Of a stretch of DNA of 32,949 bases, positions 1 through 27,316 are shown one piece after another. Every line of letters begins with the position of its first letter. Position 1 is the first letter of the stretch. Source of the DNA: Stentor roeselii (lineage: Eukaryota > Ciliophora > Heterotrichea > Heterotrichida > Stentoridae); contig RSEH01000375.1 in NCBI GenBank assembly GCA_006503475.1, forward strand, positions 1-32,949, written 5' to 3'. The notes under the pieces were generated by a model, which was not told the origin of the DNA, made no database searches, and saw nothing but the letters and a program-made list of their open reading frames with translations. A program made the position numbers and the translations under genes.

Positions 1-3000
1 TGAAGAACTTGATGAACTAGACGAACTGGACGAACTCTTTTTCTTTGGTAATTCGACTTTCACCTCAGGTTTTGTTACGTTTATATCAATCTTTTTCTTT
101 GAAGAACTTGATGAACTTGATGAGCTCTTTTTCTTGGGAATTTCGACTTTCACTTCAGGTTTTGTTATGTTAATATCAATCTTCTTTTTATTTGAAGAAC
201 TTGATGAACTGGACGAACTCTTTTTCTTAGGAATTTCGACTTTTACGTCAGGCTTTTTGATATTTATGTCAATCTTCTTCTTTTTACTTGAAGAACTTGA
301 TGAACTCGATGAGCTGCTCTTTTTCTTAGGAACAACAATGTTTACATCAGGTTTTTTGAGATTTATATCAATTTTTTTCTTTTTACTTGAAGAGCTTGAA
401 GAACTGGATGAGCTCTTTTTCTTAGGAACATCAACTTTCACCTCAGGCTTCTTGATATTGATTTCAATCTTCTTCTTTTTGCTTGAAGAGCTTGAAGAAC
501 TCGATGAACTGCTCTTTTTCTTGGGAACAACAACGTTCACATCAGGTTTCTTGATATTGACTTCAATCTTCTTCTTTTTGCTTGAAGAGCTTGAAGAACT
601 CGATGAGGTTTTCTTTTTCTTAGGAACTTCAACTTTCACTTCAGGTTTCTTGATATTTACGTCAATCTTCTTCTTTTTGCTTGAAGAACTAGAAGAACTC
701 GATGAACTACTTTTTTTCTTAGGAACAACAACGTTAACTTCAGGCTTCTTGATGTTTACATCAATCTTCTTCTTTTTGCTTGAAGAGCTTGAAGAACTGG
801 ATGAGCTGCTCTTTTTCTTTGGAACATCAACTTTCACCTCAGGCTTCTTGATATTGATTTCAATCTTCTTCTTTTTGCTTGAAGAACTTGATGAACTGGA
901 TGAGCTGCTCTTTTTCTTGGGAACAACAACATTCACTTCAGGTTTCTTGATATTTACATCAATCTTCTTCTTTTTACTTGAAGAGCTTGAAGAACTGGAT
1001 GAGCTCTTTTTCTTAGGAACAACTACGCTTACCTCAGGCTTCTTGATGTTTATTTCAATCTTCTTCTTTTTACTTGAAGAGCTTGAAGAACTCGATGAGC
1101 TCTTTTTCTTGGGGACAACTATGCTCACTTCAGGCTTCTTGATGTTTATATCAATCTTCTTTTTTTCGCTTGAAGAACTTGATGAACTGGATGAGCTGCT
1201 CTTTTTCTTTGGAACAACAATGTTCACTTCAGGTTTCTTGATGCTTATATCAATCTTCTTCTTTTTGCTTGAAGAACTTGATGAACTGGATGAGCTGCTC
1301 TTTTTCTTGGGAACAACAACGTTCACTTCAGGTTTCTTGATATTTACATCAATCTTCTTCTTTTTACTTGAAGAGCTTGAAGAACTGGATGAGCTCTTTT
1401 TCTTAGGAACAACTACGCTTACCTCAGGCTTCTTAATATTTATGTCAATCTTCTTTTTGCTTGAAGAACTTGATGAACTCGATGAACTACTCTTTTTCTT
1501 TGGAACTTCAACTTTCACTTCAGGTTTCTTGATGTTTACTTCAATCTTCTTCTTTTTGCTTGAAGAACTTGATGAACTGCTCTTTTTCTTAGGAACAACA
1601 ACTTTCACCTCAGGTTTTTTGATGTTTACATCAATCTTCTTCTTTTCGCTTGAAGAGCTTGAAGAACTTGATGAGCTCTTTTTCTTGGGAACAACAACTT
1701 TTACATCAGGCTTCTTGATGTTTATGTCAATCTTCTTCTTTTTACTTGAAGAGCTTGAAGAACTGGATGAGCTCTTTTTCTTAGGAACTTCAACTTTCAC
1801 TTCAGGTTTCTTGATATTTACTTCAATCTTCTTCTTTTTACTTGAAGAACTTGATGAACTCGATGAGCTCTTTTTCTTAGGAACAACAACTTTCACTTCA
1901 GGTTTCTTGATATTTACATCAATCTTCTTCTTTTTGCTTGAAGAGCTTGAAGAACTTGATGAGCTCTTTTTCTTTGGAACTTCAACTTTCACTTCAGGCT
2001 TCTTGATATTTACTTCAATCTTCTTCTTTTTGCTTGAAGAGCTTGATGAGCTCGATGAGCTCTTTTTCTTAGGAACAACAACTTTCACTTCAGGTTTCTT
2101 GATATTTAAGTCAATCTTCTTCTTTTTGCTTGAAGAACTTGATGAACTACTCTTTTTCTTCGGAACAACAACTTTTACATCAGGCTTCTTGATGTTTACG
2201 TCAATCTTCTTCTTTTTGCTCGAAGAACTCGATGAGCTCTTTTTCTTTGGAACAACAACTTTTACCTCAGGCTTTTTGATGTTTATGTCAATCTTCTTCT
2301 TTTTACTAGAAGAGCTTGAAGAACTTGATGAGCTCTTTTTCTTTGGAACAACAACTTTTACATCAGGTTTCTTGATGTTTATGTCAATCTTCTTTTTGTT
2401 TGAAGAACTTGATGAACTACTCTTTTTCTTGGGAACAACAACTTTCACTTCAGGTTTTTTGATGTTTATATCAATCTTCTTCTTTTTACTTGAAGAGCTT
2501 GAAGAACTCGATGAGCTGCTCTTTTTCTTGGGAACAACAACTTTTACATCAGGTTTCTTGATGTTTACTTCAATCTTCTTCTTTTCGCTTGAAGAACTTG
2601 ATGAACTGCTCTTTTTCTTAGGAACAACAACTTTCACCTCAGGTTTTTTGATGTTTACATCAATCTTTTTCTTTTTACTTGAAGAACTTGAAGAACTCGA
2701 TGAGGTTTTCTTTTTCTTAGGAACAACAACTTTCACTTCAGGTTTCTTGATGTTTACATCAACCTTCTTCTTTTTACTAGAAGAGCTTGAAGAACTTGAT
2801 GAGCTCTTTTTCTTTGGAACAACAACTTTTGCCTCAGGCTTTTTGATGTTTACTTCAATCTTCTTCTTTTTACTTGAAGAACTAGATGAGCTCTTTTTCT
2901 TAGGAACAACAACTTTCACTTCAGGCTTCTTGATGTTGACATCAATATTTTTTTTGCTTGAAGAACTTGATGAGCTACTCTTTTTCTTAGGAATAACAAC

Positions 3001-4065
3001 TTTTGCTTCAGGCTTTTTGATGTTTACTTCAATCTTCTTTTTATTTGAAGAACTAGAAGAACTAGACGAGCTCTTTTTCTTAGGAACAACAACTTTTGCC
3101 TCAGGTTTTTTTATGTTTACTTCAATCTTTTTCTTTTCGCTCGAAGAACTTGATGAGCTACTCTTTATCTTAGGAATAACAACTTTTGCCTCAGGTTTTT
3201 TTATGTTTACTTCAATCTTCTTCTTTTTGTTTGAAGAACTAGATGAACTGGAGGAGCTCTTTTTCTTAGGAACAACAACTTTTGCCTCAGGTTTCTTGAT
3301 GTTTACTTCAATCTTCTTCTTTTCGCTTGAAGAGCTTGAAGAACTACTCTTTTTTTTAGGAATAACAACTTTTGCCTCAGGTTTTTTGATGTTTACTTCA
3401 ATCTTCTTCTTTTCGCTTGAAGAACTCGATGAGCTACTCTTTTTCTTGGGAATAACAACTTTCGCCTCAGGTTTTTTGATGTTTACTTCAATCTTTTTCT
3501 TTTCGCTTGAAGAACTCGATGAACTAATTTTTTTCTTAGGAACAACAACTTTAGCCTCAGGCTTTTTGATGTTTACTTCAATCTTCTTCTTTTCGCTCGA
3601 AGAACTTGAAGAACTACTCTTTTTCTTAGGAATAACAACTTTTGCTTCAGGCTTTTTGATGTTTACTTCAACCTTCTTCTTTTTGTTTGAAGAACTAGAA
3701 GAACTGGAGGAGCTCTTTTTCTTAGGAACAACAACTTTTGCCTCAGGTTTCTTGATGTTTACTTCAATCTTTTTCTTTTTGTTTGAAGAACTAGAAGAAC
3801 TAGACGAGCTCTTTTTCTTGGGAATAACAACTTTTGCCTCAGGTTTTTTTATGTTTACTTCAATCTTCTTCTTTTCGCTTGAAGAACTCGATGAGCTACT
3901 CTTTTTCTTGGGAATAACAACTTTCGCCTCAGGTTTTTTTATGTTTACTTCAATCTTCTTTTTATTTGAAGAACTCGATGAACTCGACGAACTCTTTTTC
4001 TTTGAAACTACAACTTTTACTTCAGGTTTTTTAATATCCACATTTATTTTTTTATGGCCACTACT
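1..4065 (-). repeat. Tandem coding repeat, about 43 copies of a 29-33 residue unit
   Basis: In the sense of the minus-strand gene each unit reads as a Ser tract (about 6-10), then KKKK, a core close to IEVNIKKPEVKVVVP, then KKK. Unit length varies by whole codons, mainly from changes in the Ser tract, so the frame is never lost. Units nearer the N-terminus (about 2820-3990) tend to have KPEAKV and short Ser tracts. Units further left have KPEVKV and longer tracts. Positions 871-1043 and 1261-1433 are almost identical (a 390-base offset, about four units; I see one difference), which suggests recent unequal exchange. The boundary at about 4065 is approximate, because the last unit degenerates into the next zone. 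Confidence 0.9.
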
Positions 4066-7000
4066 TGCAGAGCTTGATCGCTTTTTACCTTTCACAACTT
4101 TTGAAGTAGGAATTTTTGGTTCAGGTAGTTTAACATCAACCTTGGCTTTTTTCTCACTAGAAGATGAAGAGCTCTTTTTCTTTGTTTTAATATCGATAGT
4201 CGGCTTTTCAATCACAATTTTGGCCTTTCTTTTAGAGGATGATGAACTGGAACTTGATTTTCCTTTGCCCTTGACAACTTTAACAGAAGGTACTTTTTGT
4301 GGTTTTGGTTTTTTATCCTTGTGACTTGAACTAGAGCTCTTTTTATCTTTAGTTTTAATTTCAACTATTGGTACAGGAACAGCTATTTTTCCTTTTTTAT
4401 GAGAAGAACTTGATGAAGAGCTTGACTTTCCTTTCCCTTTCACAACTTTGGATTTAGGAACTTTTGGTTCAGTTACTTTGATATCAGCTTTTACTTTCTT
4501 ACTTGAAGATGATGAGCCAGTTTTCTTTATTTTAACATCGATATTAGGCTTTTCAATTTCAATTTTAACTTTCTTATCAGAAGATGATGAGCTAGAACTT
4601 GATTTTCCTTTGCCCTTTAAAACTTTGGCAGACGGAATATCTGGCTTTTTGACTTTGTTCTCAACCTTTTTCTTTTTATCACTTGAGCTAGATCTCTTTT
4701 TATCTTTAGTTTTTATTTCTATATTCGGCTTGGTTATAATTATTTTTCCTTTTTTATGAGATGAAGAACTTGATGAAGATGATTTTCCTTTGCCTTTCAC
4801 AACTTTTGATTTAGGAACTTTCGGTTCTACGACTTTTACATCATCTTTTACTTTCTTGTGGCTTGATGATGATGAGCCGCTTTTCTTTATTTTGATATCT
4901 ATAATCGGCTTGTCAATATCGATTTTAACTTTCTTATCAGTAGATGATGAGCTAGAACTAGATTTTCCTTTACCATGAATAACTTTCGCAGAAGGGATTT
5001 CTGGCTTTTTGACTTCCTTCTTAACTTTTTTCTTTTTATCACTTGAGGATGAACTCTTTTTATCCTTTGTTGTTACTTCGATGCTTGGAATTCCAATAGA
5101 AATTTTTCCTTTTTTATGAGAAGATGATGAGGAACTTGTATGTTTTTTCCCTTTTACTACCTTTACAGAAGGTATAACAGGTTTTTCAGGAATAATTTTC
5201 TTCTTTTTATGGCTAGAACTTGAAGAACTTTTACCTTTTACTTTGATATCAACAGCGGGCTTTGGCACTTCAATTTTTGCTCTTCGCTTTGAAGATGAAC
5301 TTGATGAAGAGCTTGATTTACCTTTGCCTTTCACAACTTTCACTGAAGGAATTTTCGGTTCAATAATTTTGACATCGGCCTTGACTTTTTTCCCACTAGA
5401 CGATGATGAACCGCTTTTCTTTGTTTTTACATCGATAATCGGTATTTCAATGTCAATTTTTGCCTTTCTTTTAGAGGACGATGAACTCGAACTCGATTTT
5501 CCTTTGCCTTTTACAACTTTAACTGTAGGAATTATTTTAGGTTTTTTCTTTTTTTCTTTATGGCTTGAGCTAGAGCTCTTCTTGTCTTTTGTTTTTAATT
5601 CTAAATCTATCAATGGGATTGTAATTTTACGATTTTTGTGAGATGAAGAGGAACTTGAAGAGGAGTTTGATTTGCCTTTCACAACTTTAGATTTCGGCAC
5701 TATTGGTTCAGTTGTTTTGATTTCAACTTTACCCTTTTTGTTGCTGGTTGATGAGCTTGAAGATGATGAGCCACTTTTCTTTGTTTTATATTCAAAATTT
5801 GGCTTCGAAATCTCAATTTTTGCCTTTTTACTTGATGAAGATGAGCTGGATTTTGATTTTCCTTTACCGTGGACAACTTTTGCAGAAGGAGTTAAAGGTA
5901 TTTTAACATCTTTATCAAGTTTCTTTTTCTTTTTGCTTGAACTAGAGCTCTTTTTATCTTTAGTTTTTATTTCAATACTTGGCGTGATAATTGAAATTTT
6001 CCCTTTCTTATGAGACGATGATGAAGAGCTAGATTTCTTTTTGCCTTTCACAACTTTCACAGAAGGTATAACTGGGATTTCAACATTAATTTTCTTCTTT
6101 TTGTCACTAGAACTTGAAGAAGTTTTGTTTTTTCCTTTGATATCAACAGTGGGCTTTGCAATTACGATTTTTCCCTTTCGTTTGGATGAGGAACTCGATG
6201 ATGAAGCCGATTTTCCCTTGCCTTTAACAACTTTGGCTGAAGGTGTTTTTGGTTCAATGATTTTTACATCAGCTTTAATCTTTTTGCCACTTGATGATGA
6301 AGAGCCTTCTTTCTTTGTTTTTATATCAATATTTGGCTTTTCGATAATAACTTTGGCTTTTCTGGTTGAAGATGATGAACTGGAACTCGATTTTCCTTTA
6401 CCCTTAACGACTTTAACAGAAGGAACCGTTTTTGATTTGGGTTTTTTCCGTTTATGACTTGAGCTTGAGCTCTTGTTAACTTTAGTTTTTATCTCGATGC
6501 TTGGAATAGGAATCAATATTTTTCCTTTTTTATGTGTTGAAGAACTCGAAGAAGAAGATTTCCCTTTACCTTTCACAACTTTAGATACAGGAATTTTTGG
6601 CTCAATCACTTTGGTATTGGGTTTTACTTTTTTATTGCTGGATGATGAACCACTTTTCTTTGTTTTAATATCAATGCTCGGTGTAGAGATCACAATTTTT
6701 CCCTTCTTGTTAGAGGATGACGAACTAGAAGATTTTCCTTTACCCTTCACAATTTTCACAACAGGAATTTCAGGTTTTTTTACTTCCTTTTCAACTTTTT
6801 TCTTTTTATCACCTGAGGTAGAGCTCTTCTTATCTTTTCTTTTTATAATGAAACTTGGATTGAAAAATGAGATTTTTCCTTTCTTTTTCGATGAAGATGA
6901 AGAACTAGACTGGCCTTTTCCTCTTACGACTTTTGCAGATGGTGTTTCAACTTTCTTTTTATTTTTAGAACTAGAAGAATTTCCAGTTGTTAGATTGATA

Positions 7001-9507
7001 TCGATAGCGGGATTTGTGATTATAACTTTTCCTTTTCGTTTTGAAGAAGTACTAGATGATGAACTTGATTTTCCTTTGCCTATCACAACTTTTGATGATG
7101 GAGTTTTTGGTTCAGTTATTATGATATCAGTCTTGATCTTTTTGCCTTTAGATGATGATGAACTACTAGAAGATCCGCCTTTCTTTCTTTTGATATCAAT
7201 AACAGGCTTGGTAATCTTAACATTGGCTTTTTTTCTTGAGGATGTTGAGCTGGAACTTGATTTTGCTTTACCTGCAACAACTTTTGCAGTAGGAATTATT
7301 GGAGTTTTTGCTTTCTTATCCTTTTTTTTCTTTTTATGACTAGAACTTGAGCTCTTTTCACCTTTTCCTTTTATATCAAAGCCTGGAATGCCAATGGAAA
7401 TTTTCGCTTTTTTATCAGATGATGACGAAGAATTAGACTGATTTCCACCTCTTATCACTTTAGCATTAGGTACGGTTGACTTTTTGATATTTTTTCGTTT
7501 TTTACTGCTAGAATTAGAGCTAGAAGTCTTTGTCAACTTCTTTTTTTTATAAGCACCAGAAATTTCCGCCTTTGATTTCAATTTTTTACTAGAAGAAGAA
7601 CTGGAGCTTGACTTTCCCGTGCCAACAACTTTTTTCGCTGATGGAGTAAGGACAATAACTGGTATACCTATAATCTTTTTGCGTTTTTCACCGGAACTAG
7701 ATGTTCCTTTCTTCTTATGACTTTTCTTTTTGTCACTTGAGGAAGAAGAGGATGAAGAACTTGAAGTTCCTTCGTGTTTAACTTTTTTCTTCTTTTTCTT
7801 AGTTTTTGAGTGATCTGAGCTGCTTTTAGTAAGTCTTGGAATTTTTAAGTTAATTCTCTTTATTTTTTCTTTAGACGAGCTGGTACTAGAGCCAACTTTT
7901 TTTCCAGTGACCACCTTTGCCTTAGGAGTTTTAACAGTTTTCGCTTTTTTCCTTTGTTTTCGATGTTGATCGTTTTGACTTAAACCTGCAGCTGCTCCCA
8001 TTTCGAGTGTATAAGAAACTGATTCAGATGATGATGATGAACTTGAGGATGATGAACTAGAGGATGATGAACTAGAGTTTGATGGCTTGGAGAAAATGTT
8101 AAGAGAAAAACCTTTCGCCTTCTTTTTATGTTTTTTGTGCTTATCATTAGAAGACTTTTTCTTTTTTGAATGTTTTTTCTCTTTATCAGAACTACTAGAA
8201 GACGAAGATTTTTTTTTCCCTTCAAATCCTAAAACCCCAGCAGCCTCCAAATTTCCTTCTTTATGTTTCCTCTTATGTTTCCTTTTATGCGAATTCGAGC
8301 TGGATGAGCTCACTTGCCTTCCAGCAACAACTTTCGGCTTAACTTTCTTCTTTTCATCAGAAGAGTCCCCCCCAGTTAAAAACTGAAGTCCAGGTAAAAA
8401 AAATCCTTTCGAATGTTTTTTTTTCTTAGAACTCGACGATTCCGATCTACTCGAAATATCCGAACTAAAAGATTCAACATTTCCATCTCCATTAACAACT
8501 TTCTTATTTTTTCTCTTTTTATGTCCTTTATTTTTCGCTTCAACTTCTTCATTTTTCGCCTTTTTCTTATTTTTCTTCCTGTTTTTTTCAAACTTTAAGT
8601 CGACTTGGTTGATTCTAAATTGATTCCAGTCCTTATCCTCCCTAGTCCTACATGCAACGAAAGGAAAAGAGACAAAAACAAAATATCCTTGATTAACAAA
8701 AGGTGGGTAATCTTCATTCAATTCAAATTTAATCGAGTTGATTTTCTTGAACTTGAGTCCATCATCATCAACATTAAGTTCAAAAATATTTTTATTATAT
8801 CTTCCAGTTTTCAAGTCTTTTCCTCCAGCAAGAATGGCATAGTTCTGACTAGCGACAAGTGAAGGACGACTTACTTTTAACCCAAACTTAACATTTTCAA
8901 CACCCAGTTCAAAACTTTCATTCATCAAATCCAATGAAAAAATCTGTTCATTCGGGAAAAGTGATTCATTTTCCTCCACCTGTCCTCCAACAAAGTAAAT
9001 TTTATTTCCCATAAGACAACACCCTGCGTTTTTTAAGGTTTTTAAGTCTTTTAAGGTAGAATTTGAAGAGTATCGAATAACGACTTCTTCCCAACGATTT
9101 GATTCAAGATTGAACCGGAAGACAGGCGCGATTGAAGAGGACTGGACTTCTCCGAAGACGTAATAAATCCACCCTGAATGTGAAAATAATCTTCCTGCTT
9201 TTGATGGTATTGGCAAGTCGGCTTTTGGAGTGATTGAAGAGGCTTCTGCGTTTAGAAGGTGCACTTTGGACTGGTACTTTCCTGAGATGCTCCCTCCTAC
9301 TGATAAAAATATTGAAGACTCCAGGTGAAGGATCGAACTGTCTTCTGCGATTTCGAAGGACTTTGGGAAGGGCAAGGATCGAACACCTTTGCTGGATGAA
9401 TGCAAACAGGTTAGCTGTTTGCGATGAAAGTAAAAGAAATTAGGAACTCCTCCTGAGATTGAAAGAGTCACTGTTGACGAGCTATCTTTACTAGAACGTC
9501 CACCCAT
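1..9507 (-). CDS. Giant kelch-like protein with Ser/Lys repeat tail (3' end outside window)
   Basis: One frame runs from an ATG at 9507 to the left edge: 3,169 codons with no stop. A TAA lies immediately upstream in frame (9508-9510), which fixes the start. I checked the triplets from 7321 to 9507 one by one and found no stop. Residues about 15-305 look like a degenerate kelch propeller, with double-glycine strands such as SVGGSISG, YFVGGQVEEN and AILAGGKDLKTG spaced about 45-60 residues apart. From about residue 306 the protein is lysine-rich, then becomes serine tracts of 5-16 residues alternating with Lys-rich segments up to the edge. No signal peptide or membrane segment is visible. The propeller suggests protein binding. 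The tail recalls the Ser/Lys alternation of Nopp140/SRP40-type proteins only in style, without their acidic residues. Function unknown. The C-terminus is missing. Confidence 0.88.
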   Translation of the reverse strand, partial: MGGRSSKDSSSTVTLSISGGVPNFFYFHRKQLTCLHSSSKGVRSLPFPKSFEIAEDSSILHLESSIFLSVGGSISGKYQSKVHLLNAEASSITPKADLPIPSKAGRLFSHSGWIYYVFGEVQSSSIAPVFRFNLESNRWEEVVIRYSSNSTLKDLKTLKNAGCCLMGNKIYFVGGQVEENESLFPNEQIFSLDLMNESFELGVENVKFGLKVSRPSLVASQNYAILAGGKDLKTGRYNKNIFELNVDDDGLKFKKINSIKFELNEDYPPFVNQGYFVFVSFPFVACRTREDKDWNQFRINQVDLKFEKNRKKNKKKAKNEEVEAKNKGHKKRKNKKVVNGDGNVESFSSDISSRSESSSSKKKKHSKGFFLPGLQFLTGGDSSDEKKKVKPKVVAGRQVSSSSSNSHKRKHKRKHKEGNLEAAGVLGFEGKKKSSSSSSSDKEKKHSKKKKSSNDKHKKHKKKAKGFSLNIFSKPSNSSSSSSSSSSSSSSSSSESVSYTLEMGAAAGLSQNDQHRKQRKKAKTVKTPKAKVVTGKKVGSSTSSSKEKIKRINLKIPRLTKSSSDHSKTKKKKKKVKHEGTSSSSSSSSSSDKKKSHKKKGTSSSGEKRKKIIGIPVIVLTPSAKKVVGTGKSSSSSSSSKKLKSKAEISGAYKKKKLTKTSSSNSSSKKRKNIKKSTVPNAKVIRGGNQSNSSSSSDKKAKISIGIPGFDIKGKGEKSSSSSHKKKKKDKKAKTPIIPTAKVVAGKAKSSSSSTSSRKKANVKITKPVIDIKRKKGGSSSSSSSSKGKKIKTDIIITEPKTPSSKVVIGKGKSSSSSSTSSKRKGKVIITNPAIDINLTTGNSSSSKNKKKVETPSAKVVRGKGQSSSSSSSKKKGKISFFNPSFIIKRKDKKSSTSGDKKKKVEKEVKKPEIPVVKIVKGKGKSSSSSSSNKKGKIVISTPSIDIKTKKSGSSSSNKKVKPNTKVIEPKIPVSKVVKGKGKSSSSSSSTHKKGKILIPIPSIEIKTKVNKSSSSSHKRKKPKSKTVPSVKVVKGKGKSSSSSSSSTRKAKVIIEKPNIDIKTKKEGSSSSSGKKIKADVKIIEPKTPSAKVVKGKGKSASSSSSSSKRKGKIVIAKPTVDIKGKNKTSSSSSDKKKKINVEIPVIPSVKVVKGKKKSSSSSSSHKKGKISIITPSIEIKTKDKKSSSSSKKKKKLDKDVKIPLTPSAKVVHGKGKSKSSSSSSSKKAKIEISKPNFEYKTKKSGSSSSSSSTSNKKGKVEIKTTEPIVPKSKVVKGKSNSSSSSSSSHKNRKITIPLIDLELKTKDKKSSSSSHKEKKKKPKIIPTVKVVKGKGKSSSSSSSSKRKAKIDIEIPIIDVKTKKSGSSSSSGKKVKADVKIIEPKIPSVKVVKGKGKSSSSSSSSSKRRAKIEVPKPAVDIKVKGKSSSSSSHKKKKIIPEKPVIPSVKVVKGKKHTSSSSSSHKKGKISIGIPSIEVTTKDKKSSSSSDKKKKVKKEVKKPEIPSAKVIHGKGKSSSSSSSTDKKVKIDIDKPIIDIKIKKSGSSSSSHKKVKDDVKVVEPKVPKSKVVKGKGKSSSSSSSSHKKGKIIITKPNIEIKTKDKKRSSSSDKKKKVENKVKKPDIPSAKVLKGKGKSSSSSSSSDKKVKIEIEKPNIDVKIKKTGSSSSSKKVKADIKVTEPKVPKSKVVKGKGKSSSSSSSSHKKGKIAVPVPIVEIKTKDKKSSSSSHKDKKPKPQKVPSVKVVKGKGKSSSSSSSSKRKAKIVIEKPTIDIKTKKKSSSSSSEKKAKVDVKLPEPKIPTSKVVKGKKRSSSASSGHKKINVDIKKPEVKVVVSKKKSSSSSSSSSNKKKIEVNIKKPEAKVVIPKKKSSSSSSSSEKKKIEVNIKKPEAKVVIPKKKSSSSSSSSSNKKKKIEVNIKKPEAKVVVPKKKSSSSSSSSSNKKKKVEVNIKKPEAKVVIPKKKSSSSSSSSEKKKIEVNIKKPEAKVVVPKKKISSSSSSSEKKKIEVNIKKPEAKVVIPKKKSSSSSSSSEKKKIEVNIKKPEAKVVIPKKKSSSSSSSSEKKKIEVNIKKPEAKVVVPKKKSSSSSSSSSNKKKKIEVNIKKPEAKVVIPKIKSSSSSSSSEKKKIEVNIKKPEAKVVVPKKKSSSSSSSSSNKKKIEVNIKKPEAKVVIPKKKSSSSSSSSKKNIDVNIKKPEVKVVVPKKKSSSSSSSKKKKIEVNIKKPEAKVVVPKKKSSSSSSSSSSKKKKVDVNIKKPEVKVVVPKKKKTSSSSSSSSSKKKKIDVNIKKPEVKVVVPKKKSSSSSSSSEKKKIEVNIKKPDVKVVVPKKKSSSSSSSSSSSKKKKIDINIKKPEVKVVVPKKKSSSSSSSNKKKIDINIKKPDVKVVVPKKKSSSSSSSSSSKKKKIDINIKKPEVKVVVPKKKSSSSSSSKKKKIDVNIKKPDVKVVVPKKKSSSSSSSSKKKKIDLNIKKPEVKVVVPKKKSSSSSSSSSSKKKKIEVNIKKPEVKVEVPKKKSSSSSSSSSSKKKKIDVNIKKPEVKVVVPKKKSSSSSSSSSSKKKKIEVNIKKPEVKVEVPKKKSSSSSSSSSSKKKKIDINIKKPDVKVVVPKKKSSSSSSSSSSEKKKIDVNIKKPEVKVVVPKKKSSSSSSSSKKKKIEVNIKKPEVKVEVPKKKSSSSSSSSSSSKKKIDINIKKPEVSVVVPKKKSSSSSSSSSSKKKKIDVNIKKPEVNVVVPKKKSSSSSSSSSSSKKKKIDISIKKPEVNIVVPKKKSSSSSSSSSSSEKKKIDINIKKPEVSIVVPKKKSSSSSSSSSSKKKKIEINIKKPEVSVVVPKKKSSSSSSSSSSKKKKIDVNIKKPEVNVVVPKKKSSSSSSSSSSSKKKKIEINIKKPEVKVDVPKKKSSSSSSSSSSSKKKKIDVNIKKPEVNVVVPKKKSSSSSSSSSSSKKKKIDVNIKKPEVKVEVPKKKKTSSSSSSSSSKKKKIEVNIKKPDVNVVVPKKKSSSSSSSSSSSKKKKIEINIKKPEVKVDVPKKKSSSSSSSSSSKKKKIDINLKKPDVNIVVPKKKSSSSSSSSSSSKKKKIDINIKKPDVKVEIPKKKSSSSSSSSSNKKKIDINITKPEVKVEIPKKKSSSSSSSSSKKKIDINVTKPEVKVELPKKKSSSSSSSSSSSS
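4066..7975 (-). repeat. Higher-order modular coding repeat (Ser tract / KVVKGKGK modules)
   Basis: This zone of the giant gene cycles through several distinct modules: one with PSIEIKTKDKK, one with a basic segment ending PSVKVVKGKGK, one with IEKPNIDIKTKK, and one with VKADVKVIEPKIP. All are separated by Ser tracts. The KTKDKK-type module recurs near 4336, 4693, 5053, 5575, 5949, 6471, 6825 and 7343. The spacings are about 357, 360, 522, 374, 522, 354 and 518 bases, so a short and a long composite unit are interspersed. Copies are more diverged than in the zone to the left and grow less regular toward 7900. Edges are approximate. Confidence 0.75.
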
Positions 9508-10654
9508 TTATAAGAACATTTGTGATTCATATTACATAGATTGAAGAGGCTTTAGAAGAAACTAGCCGTTGGATGATAGGTTTTGATTGTTATGGGGAGT
9601 TGGGTTTGGTTTTTTTTGGATTGATGGATTTTAAGGGTTTTTTAGGGGTTTAGGAGTTGGATGGTTTGGGATTTTTTTGGAATAGTGGAGAATTGGGTTT
9701 AGGTGAGGTGGATTGGGTTTGATTGTTTTGTAAAACTGGATGATTTTTAAAGATGTTTTAGAATTTTTGGATTTTTAGAGTTTAATTTTTATTAAGTTTA
9801 GAAGGTTGGTCGTTTTGGTTTAAGTAGGGATTTTAGAATATTGGTGAGTTTTCGGTTTGAGTTTTATGATTGAAGATAGGACTTGTAAGGTTTTGACTCT
9901 CATTGGCTTTGAAGTGAAAACTCGATAAGATATTTGAATTAATCATGTTTCATTACTATTTATTATTAGTTAAAAGTTAGTTGAATTAAGAAATAATTAG
10001 GAATCGAAAGTGTTCTTATAGAAAGTTAGACCTAATAAGAACTCTAATGAGAGAAAATCCCTTAATTATAGAGGAGGTTAGATAAAACTCAGTAAGACTT
10101 CAAATAATAAAAATTTGATTAATGGGCGATTTTTTTGAACTGACTTCTCTTCTGTTGCCCACCACAAGGAATTATAAAATAAGGGTTATATAAGTCTTCT
10201 TAAAGAAATCTGCGTTAGTGTGATAACATGATGAGAAAACTTCTAGGCTATATTAATTTTACTGTAAATATCACCACATTAAAATTCTCTGCCTTAAACT
10301 CTTATTGATGGAGTTCAATACAAAAGAAGGGATGACTTATCTTTCTGCGAAGTGTTCAAACTTTAATTAAAACTTCACTCAATTAAAACATCAAGATATA
10401 TCATTCAAAAAATTCAACAATAATCCTTTCTAGTTACACTTGATTTAACAGATGAAAACTCATAGTTACTCCAATAATCTTCTATATTCAATGACAATAT
10501 TCATCCCTATTAAAATGTATCATTCCTATCAAGCTTCCAATAAAAACTCTCTAAAAACCCTAAACCTCTAAAATCTCTAAAACCTCTAAAAAATCCTTCT
10601 TAATCACTAAAACATAATTCCAATCAAATTCTTCTCCGTAATCTTAAACCTAAT
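9508..10654. other. 1.15 kb without a recognisable gene
   Basis: No ORF of convincing length or composition and no tRNA-like sequence is visible. The part next to the giant gene (about 9540-9900) is rich in G and T on the plus strand, so it is C- and A-rich and poor in G in the sense of the giant gene, like the leaders of other genes here. The part next to the calmodulin-like gene (about 10540-10650) has the opposite bias for that gene, as expected for a 3' flank. A 7-bp inverted repeat (10012-10018 with 10036-10042, 17-base loop) is the only small structure I noticed, and it may be chance. Confidence 0.6.
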
Positions 10655-11125
10655 TCACTTATTAGCCTGCTGTTCTTTAGCATTCATGATTCCCAAAAAC
10701 TCTTCAAAACTAAGTTTACCGTCTTGATCAGCATCTCCAATATCGAAAATTTCATAAATTTCGTCATCAGTTAAATTTTCTTGCAAACTTTTCATCACAT
10801 ACTTGACTTGAGCCATTGAAATAAATCCAGACCTGTCCTTATCAAAAACCATGAAAATTTCTCGAAGTTCTTCTTCGGTGTCGATATCTTTATGAGACTT
10901 TGATGCAATATTTATGAATTCAGCAAAGTCTACTCGTCCGTCTTGGTCTAAGTCGAGTTCAGCCATTAAACCATTCAACTCTTCAGTGTTTATTTGAATA
11001 CCTCCATGCCGAAGAGCAGCGTAAAGCTCAGAAGCTGAAAGACTCCCGTCACCATCTGTGTCCATTGAAGCGAAGGCTTTTCGTAGTTCTTCAATTTGCT
11101 CATCTTTTAGCATGTCATTGTTCAT
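10655..11125 (-). CDS. Calmodulin-like protein with four EF-hands
   Basis: The product is 156 residues, close to calmodulin length. It has four EF-hand loops at residues 22-33, 58-69, 95-106 and 131-142, in two pairs joined by a linker around 75-90. Loops 1, 2 and 4 have Asp at positions 1 and 3 and Glu at position 12. Loop 3 (DKDRSGFISMAQ) ends in Gln106 where the bidentate Glu normally sits, so that site should bind calcium weakly or not at all. Known proteins of this type bind calcium and then grip target helices. The sequence is diverged enough from conserved calmodulin that I call it calmodulin-like; a centrin-type role cannot be excluded. The start ATG sits in CTATAATG, and the stop is TGA. 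Confidence 0.9.
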   Translation of the reverse strand: MNNDMLKDEQIEELRKAFASMDTDGDGSLSASELYAALRHGGIQINTEELNGLMAELDLDQDGRVDFAEFINIASKSHKDIDTEEELREIFMVFDKDRSGFISMAQVKYVMKSLQENLTDDEIYEIFDIGDADQDGKLSFEEFLGIMNAKEQQANK

Positions 11126-11222: not shown

Positions 11223-12149
11223 CTAATAACGCAAACTTGCGAATTCACTTCGAAGGTTACATGCTTTAAAAGAAATCGAAGGAGTAGGTGTAGACCTGGA
11301 AGAAGGAGAGACCTTCCAAGGAGTGCTTTCATCAGGTTTTCTCCTTTTAATAATCGGAAGAGGACTGGGCATATATTCCGGGTGTTTTTCAAAGCAGTCT
11401 ACTCCTCGAGTAGTAGACTTAAAAGGCAAGTCATGTTTAGCAAATGAATGAGAATAGCTGACCTGTCTCTTCTTTGGCCTTATTTTCGAATCACTTCCAT
11501 ATATTTCCATATCTTTCGAAAAACTTCGAAGGCCGAAGTCTGTCGATTTGAACGGACTGTCGTGATTCGCTATTTTTATCCCTTTGGTCAAGTTAGCTTT
11601 GGAAAATTTCAAGTTGTATGGGTCTGCCATGTGCTCAGGGTATTGACCGAATGTTACTCCTGGGGTCACTGATGCATGGCCTTTTTTCATTGGAGAGGTT
11701 AGAAAGTTCTTTGGACCCAATTCAGTCGTTTTTAACTTTTTTTGGTTAGGTTTTTCTGGTTCTGGTGAAATAAACTCGAAGGGATATATCTCTTCTTTTG
11801 CCTTTCCAGCTGGTTTCCATACTTCTCCATGAACATCTTTTTCTTTTTTAACCCTTTTTCGTTCTTCCTGGAAGTAAGTCGTTCTTTCCTTGAACTCTTC
11901 AGCGGATTCTTCAGGATATGAAAATAGTGCATCTTTTAACTTACCCTTCTTGGGCGAAGTTGTAATAAAATTCCTAAGCCCAGCATCCACAGTTCCATCC
12001 TTATTTCTCCTACTCTTCCTCATCTGAAAATACGAGTGCTTTGCGACAGCCAAAGTTCCAGGAAACGAGAAAAGTCCAAATTTTCTATTTTCAGGGTCAA
12101 ATTTGGACTCCTCAAATATTTTCTGTCTCAACATCTCCAGTTCAGCCAT
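11223..12149 (-). CDS. Probable CFAP96/UPF0602-type ciliary protein
   Basis: This 308-residue basic protein has no membrane segment. It begins with a segment containing KFGLFS. It repeats a motif of the form G-(L/P)-(R/K)-NF-hydrophobic-TSP-x-KKG, once near residue 57 (GLRNFITTSPKKG) and again near 144 (GPKNFLTSPMKKG). The second copy is followed by TPGVTFGQYPEHMADPY, and later there are two DxPFKST segments. This resembles the C4orf47/CFAP96 family (UPF0602), conserved in ciliated eukaryotes and associated with ciliary or centrosomal microtubules. The match rests on remembered motifs. About 97 bases separate its stop from the downstream calmodulin-like gene on the same strand. A generic microtubule-binding repeat protein is the alternative. 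Confidence 0.6.
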   Translation of the reverse strand: MAELEMLRQKIFEESKFDPENRKFGLFSFPGTLAVAKHSYFQMRKSRRNKDGTVDAGLRNFITTSPKKGKLKDALFSYPEESAEEFKERTTYFQEERKRVKKEKDVHGEVWKPAGKAKEEIYPFEFISPEPEKPNQKKLKTTELGPKNFLTSPMKKGHASVTPGVTFGQYPEHMADPYNLKFSKANLTKGIKIANHDSPFKSTDFGLRSFSKDMEIYGSDSKIRPKKRQVSYSHSFAKHDLPFKSTTRGVDCFEKHPEYMPSPLPIIKRRKPDESTPWKVSPSSRSTPTPSISFKACNLRSEFASLRY

Positions 12150-14588: not shown

Positions 14589-14603
14589 TTAGTGAATCTT
14601 GTA

Positions 14604-15746
14604 ATGGAAAACTTTTCAGATACTCCTTCATCGATTCAGACTCTTCAACGTAAAAGTTTCGAGTTTTGGACAGCTTATAAAACCCTTCCAAACCAAAAAA
14701 TCTTCACAAATCTTATATCAAGTCAAGAAGTTCTAAACAGAATAGAAGTAATTTTCTTAGACTTAATTCAACAAATCAACTCAACAGGAACAATAAAACT
14801 TTCATTTTTAAGTTCAATAAAAAGTGCATCTTTCGACTCTTTAACAAATACCAACCGTCTTCAAAACCCGTCAAATATTTCCTTATCCAGTTCAAAAGAG
14901 CTAAAAACCATCGCATTTATAGTAAAAGTTTTACAAATTTCTTATAATCTTCTATTAACAGGAAGAAAAGCTACAAAAAGAGAAGTTTTTTACATGAACT
15001 CGAAATTATTCCAAAATCAAAAAACTTCAGATAAAGCTATTGATTATGCTTGTTATATTTTAGAAGTTCCTCGTGATAGACTCAACATTTTCGCTTCAAG
15101 TAAAGGTCTCGTTACCGGATCAATCTCCTTTTACGAGCAAGGTATTTTCACTGAAGTTGGAGAAAGAACAGTAAAAATCCCTTCAGACATGGATTCAATC
15201 AGTGACCTTTCAACTAAAGCAGATTTTATCCTTGTCGTTGAAAAAGACACAGCACTTTCCCGTTTAGTCCAAGAAGGTTTCTTCGCCGACGCATCCTGCG
15301 TCGGGGTGACAGGTTGTGGGTACCCTGACCTTGCAACTCGTCAATTTTTACGTCGTTTAACAAGTGAATTTCCTTGGCTTCCTGTTTTAGTCTTGACTGA
15401 TTTTGACCCTCATGGGTTTAAAATTCTTTCGACTTATACATTTGGAAGTAGAAAAATGGCCTTTGAATGTGATTATCTTGCATTACCATTCGCTCATTGG
15501 CTTGGAGTCCATAATGAAGGCAGTTGTCCTTTACCACTCACGGGACAGGATAAGAAACTTTTAAAGAGTCTTCTTAGGCTTCCTCAGATTAACTCCCCTC
15601 CAGACTCGTATCAACATAAAAGGTTTTGCTTGTGGAAAGTTCAGATGAAAGAAATGAAAAAAAAAGGGGTTAAACATGAAATTGATAATATTCCGGATTT
15701 GAAAAGATATGTTTTGAATAAGGTCTTTAATGAGAATTGGATTTAA
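14604..15746 (+). CDS. SPO11: SPO11 meiotic DNA double-strand-break protein (TopoVIA-like)
   Basis: The 380-residue product has the TopoVIA/Spo11 architecture. The winged-helix/CAP part carries the catalytic tyrosine in KREVFYMN (Tyr130; the preceding residue is Phe, so the choice is clear). The Toprim part has the metal-binding glutamate in VVEKD (Glu213) and the acidic pair in DFDPHG (Asp266 and Asp268). Also typical are SSKGLVTG, TGCGYPDLATR and the WLGVH segment. Family members cut both DNA strands through a tyrosyl-DNA link to start meiotic recombination, in the nucleus. All key residues are intact. I place the start at the ATG at 14604, after an in-frame GTG at 14592. The gene lies 15 bases after the TPR gene and 2 bases before the next. 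Confidence 0.96.
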   Translation: MENFSDTPSSIQTLQRKSFEFWTAYKTLPNQKIFTNLISSQEVLNRIEVIFLDLIQQINSTGTIKLSFLSSIKSASFDSLTNTNRLQNPSNISLSSSKELKTIAFIVKVLQISYNLLLTGRKATKREVFYMNSKLFQNQKTSDKAIDYACYILEVPRDRLNIFASSKGLVTGSISFYEQGIFTEVGERTVKIPSDMDSISDLSTKADFILVVEKDTALSRLVQEGFFADASCVGVTGCGYPDLATRQFLRRLTSEFPWLPVLVLTDFDPHGFKILSTYTFGSRKMAFECDYLALPFAHWLGVHNEGSCPLPLTGQDKKLLKSLLRLPQINSPPDSYQHKRFCLWKVQMKEMKKKGVKHEIDNIPDLKRYVLNKVFNENWI

Positions 15747-20252: not shown

Positions 20253-20662
20253 GAATTTATTTTAGTAAGTTTATCGAAAATTTTTTGGTTTAGAGAAGGT
20301 TTATGGGTTTTGATTTGGTTGAAATTTTAGGAGTTTTTTTGAAGACTTTTAAGGATTTTTTGGTTAATTTTGAGGTATTTGGATTTTTTTAAGTTATAGA
20401 AGGTTTTTAATATTGGTAAATGTTGAGTTATTTTAATAGTTTTTAAGTGACAAAAGGTTTTAAATAATGGTAATGTTAATTTATTTGAACTGAAAGAAGG
20501 TTTTTAATATTGGTAAATGTTGAGTCCTTTTAATATTTTTTAAGTGAAAGAAGGTTTTATTTAATGGTAAATGTTGAAGTTTGATTCATGAATGTTAATA
20601 AAGATATCTAGGAAATATTAGAATAATAAATAAAACTATTTAGGTAACCAATTTATCTTAAT
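20253..20662. other. Intergenic region containing leader and direct repeat
   Basis: 410 bases lie between the kinase gene's stop (20663) and the start of the coiled-coil gene (20252), both on the minus strand. The 20253-20395 part is C/A-rich and G-poor in the sense of the coiled-coil gene, as expected for its leader. A duplicated unit of about 97 bases fills much of the rest. No gene seen. Confidence 0.55.
20399..20577. repeat. Imperfect direct repeat of about 97 bases, two copies
   Basis: The 30-base start of the unit, beginning GAAGGTTTTTAATATTGGTA, occurs at 20399 and again at 20496. The following parts also match with small changes. Each unit contains a shorter, weaker internal copy (AAAGGTTTTAAATAATGGTA-like) about 54 bases in, so the array has an alternating 54/43 base pattern. 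It lies upstream of the minus-strand coiled-coil gene. Confidence 0.7.
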
Positions 20663-24364: not shown

Positions 24365-27316
24365 ATGTTGAACAAACATTATTCTTCGGATCAACCTTCA
24401 AAGAATCCAAGTTCTCATAAATTGAACTTTCCTTATCTTTCTCATAAGGTGTCGGAAAATCATCAGAGGGAAAAAAGTCTTGACCTTGCATTTCTTCCCT
24501 TTTATGTTGATAATCAGTCAGCTACTGACTGCTCTTCTGCAGGAAGGTTCTTTAAAAATCCGGAATTCCCGAAAACTACAAGAGCAGTGAGTCACTCTTA
24601 TAAAATGCCTAAAGTTCAGAAAACTAGGGAGTCTTTCTTGAATCATGCTGAACCTCGAGCTTTACTTTCTTCTGACCAGTCATGGGAAGTAAGCGAACGA
24701 ATCGAATCCTTTAAAATCCGAGGCGAAAACTGTCCATTTCCAAGCCAATCATCCGAAAGTCTCACTTATCACCTCTCATTATGGAAGTCCTGTTCATCAG
24801 AGATCCTATCAGTAATAAAATCATCAAACACCGAGTTGCACTCAAGTCTTTCCTTTCTTTTTTCAAAATACTCTGGACTTTTCGACGACCTTCACTGTTT
24901 CCAAAAGCTTCAAAGTTTAAAACTAGAAGAAAAATTAGAAGAACTCTCTTCAAAAGTAAAAAAACTTCAAAAAGAACTTCTTCGAGTCCAAAACGAAAAC
25001 AGCGAACTTCTTTCCTTCAAACGTCTCGACCAAGAAAAAATAAAAAAAGAAATCGACGACCTTTTCCCCAACAACGACGAAGAAATCAAGCGACTGAAAG
25101 AAGAATCTTTAAACCTTCGTCGAAAAGACGGTAAAAACGTTCCAGAAGCTCTTGAAAAGTTGTGGAATTCAATGCAAGTCGATGAAAAAATTCCAGAAGT
25201 GACTGAAATCGATTTGGAACAGTTCAACTCAGGCCAAGTCCTGATGAACTTACAGGAAAACTACAAGTTTATCATCAATAAGACTGTAAAACATGTAAAA
25301 CAAGCAGCACCGAAACCTTCCTGGTCTTTAAGAGAAGTTCAAACTGATGCACCTTGGGTGGACCCGAAGATTCATGATGATCTTCAAAAACAACTTGAAA
25401 AATTACATCTTTCTCTTCAGTCTTGCCAGATGCAATTGGAAAATTTCAAAGAAGAGTCTTTTGCGAAAAATTCAGCTTTTGAGAAGTTTGAAAGTGAAAA
25501 ACAACTGATGAAAAATGAAACTTTGCAAGGAAAACGAGAAGTTGAAATGATTCATAAGGAAGCTCAAAATTTGAAGATTGAGTTGGAAATGAAAAAGGGA
25601 GAAATTCAGAAGTTAAAAAGACAAAATGATGAAAAAACGGTTTTAATTGTAGAAATGGAAACGAGGATTGAAAATTTAACTGATAAAATGATTGATTTGA
25701 ATTATGAACTTGATAAAAGTAAAAGGTCTAGACCGCCTAGTTCTTTTGTTGTGAGGAAGTCGGAGAGAATGGTTGGGAGAGAGAAGGAAGAGGAAGAAGT
25801 GAAAAATAAGGCTGAAAATAATGTGAAAAATTCAAGGTCTATTAGAGATGAAATGGAGAAAATGTTTAATTTGGTTAAAGCAACTAAAAATTTGACTGAG
25901 AAGGAAAAAATTAGTGAAAAGGATAAAATTAGTGAAAAGGATAAAATTAGTGAAAAGGATAAAATTAGTGAAAAGGATAAAATTAGTGAAAAGGATAAAA
26001 TTAGTGAAAAGGAAAAAGATTCTATTGAAAAGGAAAAAGGCTTCTCAGATGCAAAATTCCCCAGTTTTGAATTCTCAAAAAGCCTCGACAATGAAGAAAT
26101 CAGAAAACTTCCCGAAAAATCCTCAGAAATCTCAAAAAACGAAGAAATTCCCAAAAAACCAACTGAAAAAGAAGACCAAAAGTTAAAATTCAAAGATCAA
26201 AACTATTTAAAGCCTTTCGAAATCGACAAGAAAAGTTTCGACCTCGAAAAAAAAGCAGAACAAGTAAAACCTGTGAAAACCGAAAATTTAAAAACAACTG
26301 AAAATCCTCAAACAAAACAAAAGCAATTAAAAGAAGAAGTCGAAGTCACAAGCCACTCAAAGCCGCCCTTAAAAGACTCCAAATCTTCAAAACCTTCAGA
26401 ACCTTCAAAGCCCGAAGAAAAAAAAGCAAAAAAATCACTTCCTAAAGCCTTGCAAAAGTTTCAAGCAGTAAAAACTCAAATCACTGTAACGAAAAAGCTC
26501 GAACAGGTAAAAAGGTCTTCAAATACTGAAAACATTGAAAAATTTTCAGCTTACAACTCTTTCGCCCCTGTCGGCGAGATGAGAGACTCAGAGTCTCTTG
26601 ATTCTGAAGAAAATAATAACAGGATTTCAACGTCAAGATACAATGAAACTTCTCAAAATGACGGAAAATTGCAACGTGAAGAAGTTTCTAATGTGGTAAG
26701 AGAAAATTTCATTGAAAAGTCTAAAGAAAAAGAAGAGAAGGATTTGAAAAATTCTGAAAATCAAACAAGTGATGAGGAATTCGATGATATCAACCCAGAT
26801 AATGAAAAAAGTCTGGAAAATGAGAGAAACTGGCAAGAAAATGATACAAAAGTCTTGAATCATGAAGAATTTGAAGAAAAATCAAAAGATTTCCAAGAAA
26901 AAAAAAAAAGTTTCAAAGAAAACGAGAAAAATTTTACAGAAAATGAGAAAAATTTTAGAGAAAATGAGAAAAAATTTAAGAATATGGATGAAAATATATC
27001 AGAAGGAAAAAACTTGAAAAGATATCCGAAAATAGTTTTGACGAGTCAGCCGATTTTGATGGAAAATGGAAAAGATCAGTGTTTGGGGACTGACTTGATT
27101 GAGACAGTTTCAGTCGGTATTCAAGTAAATATGAACAAGAAAGACGACTCTTACTTAAGTGAGTCGACGACTTACTTCTTACCATATAATCCAAACAATA
27201 TTTATGGTCTTCGAGGAGATGTTTATTATCAAGGCTCTTCTTTCCAGCCTCAGGCCAGGATTCCAGACCTGTCATCAAGTTTATTATTCAATCCTCCTTA
27301 TAAACTAAATAACTAA
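24365..27316 (+). CDS. Large coiled-coil protein with short internal repeats
   Basis: The 983-residue hydrophilic protein starts at the ATG in TTTAAATG. Residues 1-130 are Ser/Pro/Lys-rich and probably disordered. Coiled-coil stretches lie at about 165-275 (for example LEEKLEELSSKVKKLQKELL) and 340-480. A very Lys/Glu/Ser-rich region follows, with six consecutive ISEKDK-type hexapeptides at 516-551 and heptads of the FTENEKN type near 850-872. The last 60 residues (from about SVGIQVNMNKK) are less charged and end in NPPYKLNN. There is no enzymatic domain or membrane segment. A structural role in the cortex or basal apparatus is a guess from the coiled coils. The CDPK gene starts 30 bases downstream on the same strand. 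Confidence 0.8.
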   Translation: MLNKHYSSDQPSKNPSSHKLNFPYLSHKVSENHQREKSLDLAFLPFYVDNQSATDCSSAGRFFKNPEFPKTTRAVSHSYKMPKVQKTRESFLNHAEPRALLSSDQSWEVSERIESFKIRGENCPFPSQSSESLTYHLSLWKSCSSEILSVIKSSNTELHSSLSFLFSKYSGLFDDLHCFQKLQSLKLEEKLEELSSKVKKLQKELLRVQNENSELLSFKRLDQEKIKKEIDDLFPNNDEEIKRLKEESLNLRRKDGKNVPEALEKLWNSMQVDEKIPEVTEIDLEQFNSGQVLMNLQENYKFIINKTVKHVKQAAPKPSWSLREVQTDAPWVDPKIHDDLQKQLEKLHLSLQSCQMQLENFKEESFAKNSAFEKFESEKQLMKNETLQGKREVEMIHKEAQNLKIELEMKKGEIQKLKRQNDEKTVLIVEMETRIENLTDKMIDLNYELDKSKRSRPPSSFVVRKSERMVGREKEEEEVKNKAENNVKNSRSIRDEMEKMFNLVKATKNLTEKEKISEKDKISEKDKISEKDKISEKDKISEKDKISEKEKDSIEKEKGFSDAKFPSFEFSKSLDNEEIRKLPEKSSEISKNEEIPKKPTEKEDQKLKFKDQNYLKPFEIDKKSFDLEKKAEQVKPVKTENLKTTENPQTKQKQLKEEVEVTSHSKPPLKDSKSSKPSEPSKPEEKKAKKSLPKALQKFQAVKTQITVTKKLEQVKRSSNTENIEKFSAYNSFAPVGEMRDSESLDSEENNNRISTSRYNETSQNDGKLQREEVSNVVRENFIEKSKEKEEKDLKNSENQTSDEEFDDINPDNEKSLENERNWQENDTKVLNHEEFEEKSKDFQEKKKSFKENEKNFTENEKNFRENEKKFKNMDENISEGKNLKRYPKIVLTSQPILMENGKDQCLGTDLIETVSVGIQVNMNKKDDSYLSESTTYFLPYNPNNIYGLRGDVYYQGSSFQPQARIPDLSSSLLFNPPYKLNN
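25910..26017 (+). repeat. 18-base coding repeat, six units (ISEKDK)
   Basis: Six consecutive 18-base units beginning ATTAGTGAAAAGGATAAA. The first five encode ISEKDK and the sixth ISEKEK. The units look identical at the DNA level except for the last, suggesting recent expansion by slippage or unequal exchange without loss of frame. Confidence 0.9.

Follow-up and report, generated by a model that had tools for sequence, protein, structure and literature searches.

A giant gene for a kelch protein with a long serine/lysine array in the ciliate Stentor roeselii

A single giant protein, in which an N-terminal kelch head is joined to a very long array of serine tracts and lysine-rich blocks, is encoded on the minus strand of the DNA analysed here, and it is confirmed as the product of a real gene. 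The window, i.e., the whole stretch under analysis, is one entire contig of 32,949 bp, labelled C316, in an assembly of 44.4 Mb and 522 contigs, and all sequences discussed below come from this one genome. The protein is tentatively read, with a probability of roughly 0.45, as a regulated membrane-associated tether or scaffold in which a lipid-anchored kelch head would carry a giant positive tail acting as a multivalent, MARCKS-like switch.

Open reading frame and kelch head

The frame of the window gene is stop-free over its whole length and still open at base 1 of the contig (Table 1). The original prediction had described a giant minus-strand frame from a well-bounded ATG, encoding a kelch-like N-terminus joined to Ser/Lys repeats. 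Both descriptions hold: the 3,169 codons and the bounding TAA are present, three kelch motif models pass their cut-offs, and residues 306-3169 consist of 27.2% Ser and 27.9% Lys. The frame had been followed as far as the window edge, where it is indeed open; this edge, however, is an assembly break inside the array, which very probably continues on a second contig, C496.

Table 1. Features of the giant gene in the window
Feature	Position	Strand	Basis or remark
5' part of the giant gene, 3,169 codons	1..9507	-	Runs off the contig end; remainder very probably on C496
In-frame TAA abutting the ATG upstream	9508..9510	-	Sequence
First seven codons, MGGRSSK, N-myristoylation-type start	9487..9507	-	Pattern fit
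Kelch head, residues 1-305	8593..9507	-	Kelch_6, Kelch_2 and Kelch_1 above cut-offs; aligned with the heads of 18 further members
Diverged part of the Ser/Lys array (residues 306 to ~1825): compound units whose spacers are of the KGKGK type	4033..8592	-	
Homogeneous array; in each unit of ~31-33 residues, a Ser tract is followed by two Lys blocks with a spacer of the IDVNIKKPEVKVVVP kind between them	1..4032	-	

Among the Pfam motif models run on residues 1-305, Kelch_6 reaches 35 bits for a cut-off of 25.3, Kelch_2 27.3 for 21.3, and Kelch_1 24.5 for 20.1, whereas the whole-propeller models stay below theirs (PF24681 with 39 vs 50 bits and PF24981 with 25 vs 50). The expectation that a kelch profile search would recognise this region was thus borne out by the motif models and not by PF24681. 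In NCBIfam, TIGR03548 scores 29.8 bits, far under its cut-off of 243.2. Matches of the head in the PDB include SAKeCEref (E 1e-07), presumably, from its name, a designed propeller, as well as KLHL20 (E 3.3e-04) and KLHL17.

Continuation on a second contig

Contig C496 (10,166 bp) begins inside the same array, whose open frame of 2,175 codons runs from 10166 down to a TAA at C496:3639. There, the array continues for about 2,000 codons and is followed by a conserved C-terminal domain of 125 residues. From these sequences, C496 very probably holds the 3' part of the window gene. The ends of the two contigs match over 105 bases with 5 mismatches and are not one identical copy, because the match is only 95.2%; no single sequence bridges both, which leaves room for neighbouring copies or for an intervening gap. 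Among the 41 x 47 = 1,927 cross pairs of units, the most alike are the last C316 unit and the first C496 unit (0.926), and units with TKP occur only as the last two of the 41 and the first two of the 47. The last five C316 units score 0.783 with the first five C496 units and 0.771 with the others, all other pairs scoring 0.780. Since the five-unit blocks are no closer than others, it is the end units and the family that speak for the join.

If no gap intervenes, the joined protein would count 5,309 to 5,344 residues, according to whether the 105-base match is an overlap or a pair of neighbours, with a mass of about 570 kDa (parts of 340 kDa from C316 and 235 kDa from C496). It would contain 149 Ser tracts (86 and 63), or fewer if the ends overlap. 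The layout is well supported in all but the physical link between C316 and C496. The kelch part and the repeat array had been taken to be contiguous, and the unbroken paralogue C106 bears this out: a single frame of 3,204 aa holds its full layout, from the head through 74 tracts to the C-terminal domain. The C-terminal domains of C106 and C496 are 47-49% identical.

Composition, selection, and charge of the array

The C316 array includes 86 Ser runs of at least four residues with a median period of 31 residues (32 in C496). Tandem Repeats Finder detects a period of 96 in 41.8 copies at 90-4029 and a period of 360 in 2.8 copies at 4084-5079. Most tracts are framed by basic residues, with a Lys at most three residues before and at least two Lys/Arg at most four residues after the tract in 76 of 86 cases in C316 and 56 of 63 in C496. 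The tracts draw on all six Ser codons, with AGY accounting for 244 of 683 in C316 and 147 of 631 in C496.

Over all pairs of codon-aligned spacers, dN/dS is 0.172 among the 41 units of C316, 0.112 among the 47 units of C496, and 0.109 across both. The units thus evolve as protein (dN/dS 0.10-0.17), these values being a guide and no proof because repeated homogenisation or concerted evolution leaves the units non-independent. In the six-frame comparison of pN/pS, the sense frame is lowest, with 0.225 vs 0.299 for the best antisense frame in C316 and 0.160 vs 0.277 in C496. An open frame of 1,440 codons lies on the plus strand at 2-4324. It was rejected as an antisense gene on the grounds of the lower sense pN/pS and of the kelch head and C-terminal domain lying on the sense strand, and would be a by-product of the repeat.

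The array has a net charge of +998 over 4,914 residues, or +0.20 per residue, and the addition of doubly charged phosphate to about 34% of its Ser residues would, by calculation, bring this charge to zero. The drastic shift in charge that had been anticipated upon phosphorylation is thus possible by arithmetic, a result that concerns the charge side only. CK2-type sites are rare, D/E standing at +3 for 37 of 1,433 Ser. In the spacers, hydrophobic residues alternate every second position in a beta-strand-like manner in five array stretches of four genes whose sequences differ; the lag-2 autocorrelation is 0.13-0.42 vs -0.02 to -0.04 for shuffles, over units that are not independent. Neither C316 nor C496 displays a transmembrane-like stretch by hydropathy. 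When array pieces were compared with Pfam, the only matches were DUF5902 (E 0.027) and, for C135, DUF5564 (E 0.003), both below cut-off.

The gene family and its C-terminal domain

Searching the genome with the head yielded 57 matches. Twenty-five genes were read, 19 from the 20 best-match loci (two loci being parts of C106) and six picked ones. The gene at C106:68000-71200, whose head is split between two frames, was left out of the counts, and the 24 remaining heads are not a random sample. With its alignable head and its Met-Gly start, the window gene has both marks of this Met-Gly kelch family. No described family matching it was found in Pfam, NCBIfam, the PDB, and the open literature searched, the titles of which include nothing on such Stentor kelch proteins or on ciliate kelch myristoylation.

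The C-terminal domain is also found in C106, C209, C19, and C53, and more weakly in C6, C132, C391, and C67. C297, with a head, and C209, with a C-terminal domain, each run off the end of their contig with an open frame, and 20 residues are identical between the two ends; from their sequences, they look like a second broken gene. The complete C135 gene (2,001 aa) consists of a head and an array, its frame ending in a Ser run, and no match to the C-terminal domain was found in it. C172 ends within its array at the contig end and C349 probably does likewise, as judged from its start and its frame length of 1,341. Three members are short, C132 with 496 aa, C67 with 518, and C391 with 528, and combine a head with a weakly similar C-terminal domain (hmmsearch against a small ORF set: 1e-05 for C132, 0.01 for C67, and 1.3e-05 for C391; hhalign for the group of three: 95% probability). 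None of these three contains a Ser tract of at least four residues, while C19 has five and C53 three. In all five members checked, an acidic SSDVSD motif stands just N-terminal of the C-terminal domain.

Against the PDB, the profile of the C-terminal domain reaches a best E value of 0.26. Against Pfam, the domains of nine members gave seven families, each matched by a single member and none common, DUF1389 (0.0027) and ASLyase_C (0.0046) being the best. The C496 C-terminus matches TFIIF_alpha in Pfam with an E value of 0.4, and NCBIfam gave no match for the domain. A stretch similar to the C-terminal domain (E 0.004) lies near a telomere end at C36:131300-132356; with three TGA and four TAA in frame, it is perhaps a decayed member of the family.

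Querying the genome with 200 residues taken from the window array gave at least 61 matches on at least six contigs (C316, C496, C297, C106, C135, and C172), a lower bound as only the best candidates are scored; C209 and C349, which hold arrays too, are not among the matches listed. Among these matches, each contig carries a kelch member or, for C496, an orphan 3' end. On the tree of the 24 heads, the six array members need three state changes, of which at least two are forced by well-supported branches and which may be gains or losses. The array label is nevertheless clustered beyond chance, as shuffled labels need a mean of 5.4 changes and only 4 of 500 shuffles are as low. Supported groups unite C106 with C297 (99/98), C172 with C349 (100/100), and C135 with the array-less C150a and C150b (98/95); the place of the window gene is unsupported (32/70), C106 and C297 being its nearest rows, and C45, C502, and C88 form long branches. 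The sequence of the unit differs among the arrays of C316, C106, C297, and C135, which suggests separate growth of the arrays; separate origin does not follow. If this is right, the family also shows repeats growing on several of its branches while selection acts on the protein.

Other members differ in what follows the head. At C502:6600-9527 on the minus strand, a Met-Gly kelch member is fused to a cholesterol oxidase (PF09129 with 282.7 bits and FAD_binding_4 with 31.1 bits), and a relative at C106:68000-70945, the one with the split head, is either broken or intron-bearing. In C38 and C66, the kelch part precedes a Cys/His-rich region that is zinc-finger-like by eye, only kelch being matched in Pfam at E 0.001.

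Met-Gly start and membrane side

Counted strictly from the first Met, 21 of the 24 family members start with Met-Gly, the window gene included. Fifteen of these 21, again with the window gene, fit the myristoylation pattern, which we take to be PROSITE PS00008, and 13 have a Cys at positions 3-5. The exceptions to Met-Gly are C150a, C172, and C349; as C172 and C349 are array members starting with MVEA, the array does not need a Met-Gly start. Among the other ORFs of at least 200 aa in the family loci, one of 38 starts with Met-Gly, and the corresponding Fisher value of 2e-12 is only a guide because this background set was not curated and has antisense frames in it. The genome also contains a gene for an N-myristoyltransferase (228.6 bits).

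With a start of the N-myristoylation type, the protein would lie at a membrane, facing the cytosol. Signal-peptide-like starts were absent from the seven members considered, the highest 12-residue mean hydropathy within the first 35 residues being 0.94 (hydropathy was used, with no dedicated predictor). Since the start is of the N-myristoylation type and not signal-peptide-like, the "matrix" of the original prediction is unlikely if an extracellular one was meant.

Relation to known proteins and proposed mechanism

The window protein shares its head with kelch beta-propeller proteins such as KLHL20 and KLHL17, three Pfam motif models being above cut-off, and differs from them by its Met-Gly start, its giant tail, and another C-terminal domain. 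BTB or BACK domains gave no match in the parts scanned for this comparison. Passages of PMC5964646 describe the switch of MARCKS, in which myristate works together with an effector domain that is rich in Lys and phosphorylated on Ser. Proteins of the MARCKS/GAP43 type resemble the window protein in an N-myristoylation-type start, as far as the sequence pattern goes, and in Lys-rich, Ser-containing blocks, but MARCKS has one effector domain, whereas more than 100 blocks and a kelch head are present here. The MARCKS Pfam profile found no match in the head (E up to 1), nor in four array pieces of the window, one of C496, and one of C135 (E up to 0.1). The MARCKS switch is the closest working analogue and AHNAK the closest analogue in layout; by the features tested, the window protein belongs to neither.

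The reading as a lipid-anchored, MARCKS-like tether builds on the layout, complete on C106, on the family, on selection on the protein, and on starts that are not signal-peptide-like. The N-terminus would be myristoylated, as the start motif and the N-myristoyltransferase gene suggest, and the head would thereby be held at the membrane. The unphosphorylated tail, with a net charge of about +1,000, could then attach at many points to polyanions, acidic phospholipids among them. Kinases acting on the Lys-flanked Ser tracts would flip the charge, so that the tail would be released, loosened, or swollen, while the kelch head and the C-terminal domain might bind partners at opposite ends.

A bolder version, which is doubtful, would have a lineage of ciliates build, perhaps repeatedly, a giant lipid-anchored polyelectrolyte, in the form of a kinase-switched brush under the cortex with a kelch head at the membrane and more than 100 Lys-Ser-Lys blocks. 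That membrane binding and extension of the tail of such a charge-switchable brush would respond steeply and in a graded way is likewise a speculative idea. If the main reading is right, cells noted for fast and extensive changes of shape would have a natural, very long, regular, phosphorylation-switchable polymer anchored to a membrane, for which the short relatives of about 500 aa in the same family would be built-in controls.

Alternative readings

The protein might instead be a membrane-anchored mechanical spacer or scaffold of the AHNAK type, working by length and multivalent binding with no phosphorylation switch, although this seems rather unlikely. Such a spacer would suit the alternating hydrophobic residues described above for five array stretches from four genes. 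The beta-like V/I-K-P spacers may resemble AHNAK repeats, as may C135 spacers such as VDVKLDAPKAKIETPK; for the regular Ser tracts, we know of no AHNAK counterpart. The giant three-part plan is also alike, AHNAK and AHNAK2 having, according to sections of PMC10682155, an N-terminal domain, thousands of repeat residues, and a C-terminal domain, but the N-terminal domain there is a PDZ domain and the repeat counts ~128 residues, in contrast with the kelch head, the median period of 31-32 residues, and the Ser tracts found here. Indeed, the head has no PDZ match, and the unit counts ~31-33, not ~128, residues. Length without any function, as would result from neutral or selfish repeat growth within a kelch gene, is improbable. 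The array sequences do differ between paralogues, while units are alike within one array, and the family tree requires the array to be gained or lost at least twice, all of which such growth would produce; it is at odds, however, with the low dN/dS between units, the use of all six Ser codons, the single physical plan of the array stretches in four genes, and the frames of 2,001 and 3,204 codons that remain open.

Other locations in or out of the cell were also weighed. The Lys blocks could equally be nuclear signals, and the protein would then be a nuclear or nucleolar polyampholyte condensing with RNA in the manner of Nopp140, which is distinctly unlikely. Ser-rich and Lys-rich blocks alternate in Nopp140/NOLC1 (SRP40), so the array follows a Nopp140 theme, and the SSDVSD motif in five of five members checked adds an acidic element before the C-terminal domain. 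The Ser tracts here, however, are without acidic residues (the 37 of 1,433 Ser above), the end domains are others, and a kelch head with a Met-Gly start would be ill-suited to a nucleolar protein. SRP40_C matched neither the C-terminal 160 residues of C496 nor nine aligned C-termini of the family; its absence from the genome does not follow from the search without a match, as 14 controls likewise gave none. The Nopp140 homologue DAO-5 is described in part of PMC3388055 with Ser stretches that alternate with acidic ones and with an SRP40 domain, and neither was found here. A secreted adhesive or silk-like polymer of a holdfast or case, built on phosphoserine and lysine, is very improbable: its Ser/Lys composition would fit, but the family starts with Met-Gly and seven members have no signal-peptide-like start. 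Caddisfly silk and tube-worm cement contain phosphoserine and lysine, and some heterotrichs have holdfasts.

Neighbouring genes, contig ends, and genetic code

Next to the giant gene, a calmodulin-like gene with four EF hands lies at 10655-11125 on the minus strand and adjoins a CFAP96-like gene at 11223-12149. The EF-hand neighbour was rejected as a centrin, its best PDB matches being calmodulin. No link of the giant gene to contraction was found among these neighbours, the adjacency of a calmodulin-like gene carrying no weight by itself. Further along the window, a Spo11/TopoVI-A-like gene is located at 14592-15746 on the plus strand, a repeat of 54/97 bases at 20360-20577 between ORFs, and an 18-base repeat in 7.7 copies at 25897-26038 inside the ORF 24365-27316.

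Contigs C316, C496, C297, C209, C172, and probably C349 end inside Ser/Lys arrays. Breaks in arrays thus explain several contig ends of the assembly, and because contigs break there, array genes are likely to be lost or truncated in annotation.

Telomere, code, and intron features together point to a Stentor-like heterotrich as the likeliest source. Contig C36 ends in repeats of GGGTGTTA, i.e., CCCTAACA on the other strand, and repeats of this CCCTAACA/GGGTGTTA type are those reported as telomere repeat for Blepharisma in a passage of PMC9942806. The same source, in part, gives TGA as Trp for the Blepharisma code, whereas the standard code is reported for Stentor in a section of PMC9505925. 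Of the 57 kelch matches, 56 are stop-free and one holds a TGA, which argues against TGA as Trp and agrees with a standard code. A scan for short introns gave no 15-base candidate on the minus strand, while on the plus strand 15 bases is the commonest length, with four candidates, against zero to two at any of the remaining lengths between 12 and 23. This intron evidence is weak; all four candidates have an A at position 10, as do most Stentor introns of 15 bases according to part of PMC9505925.
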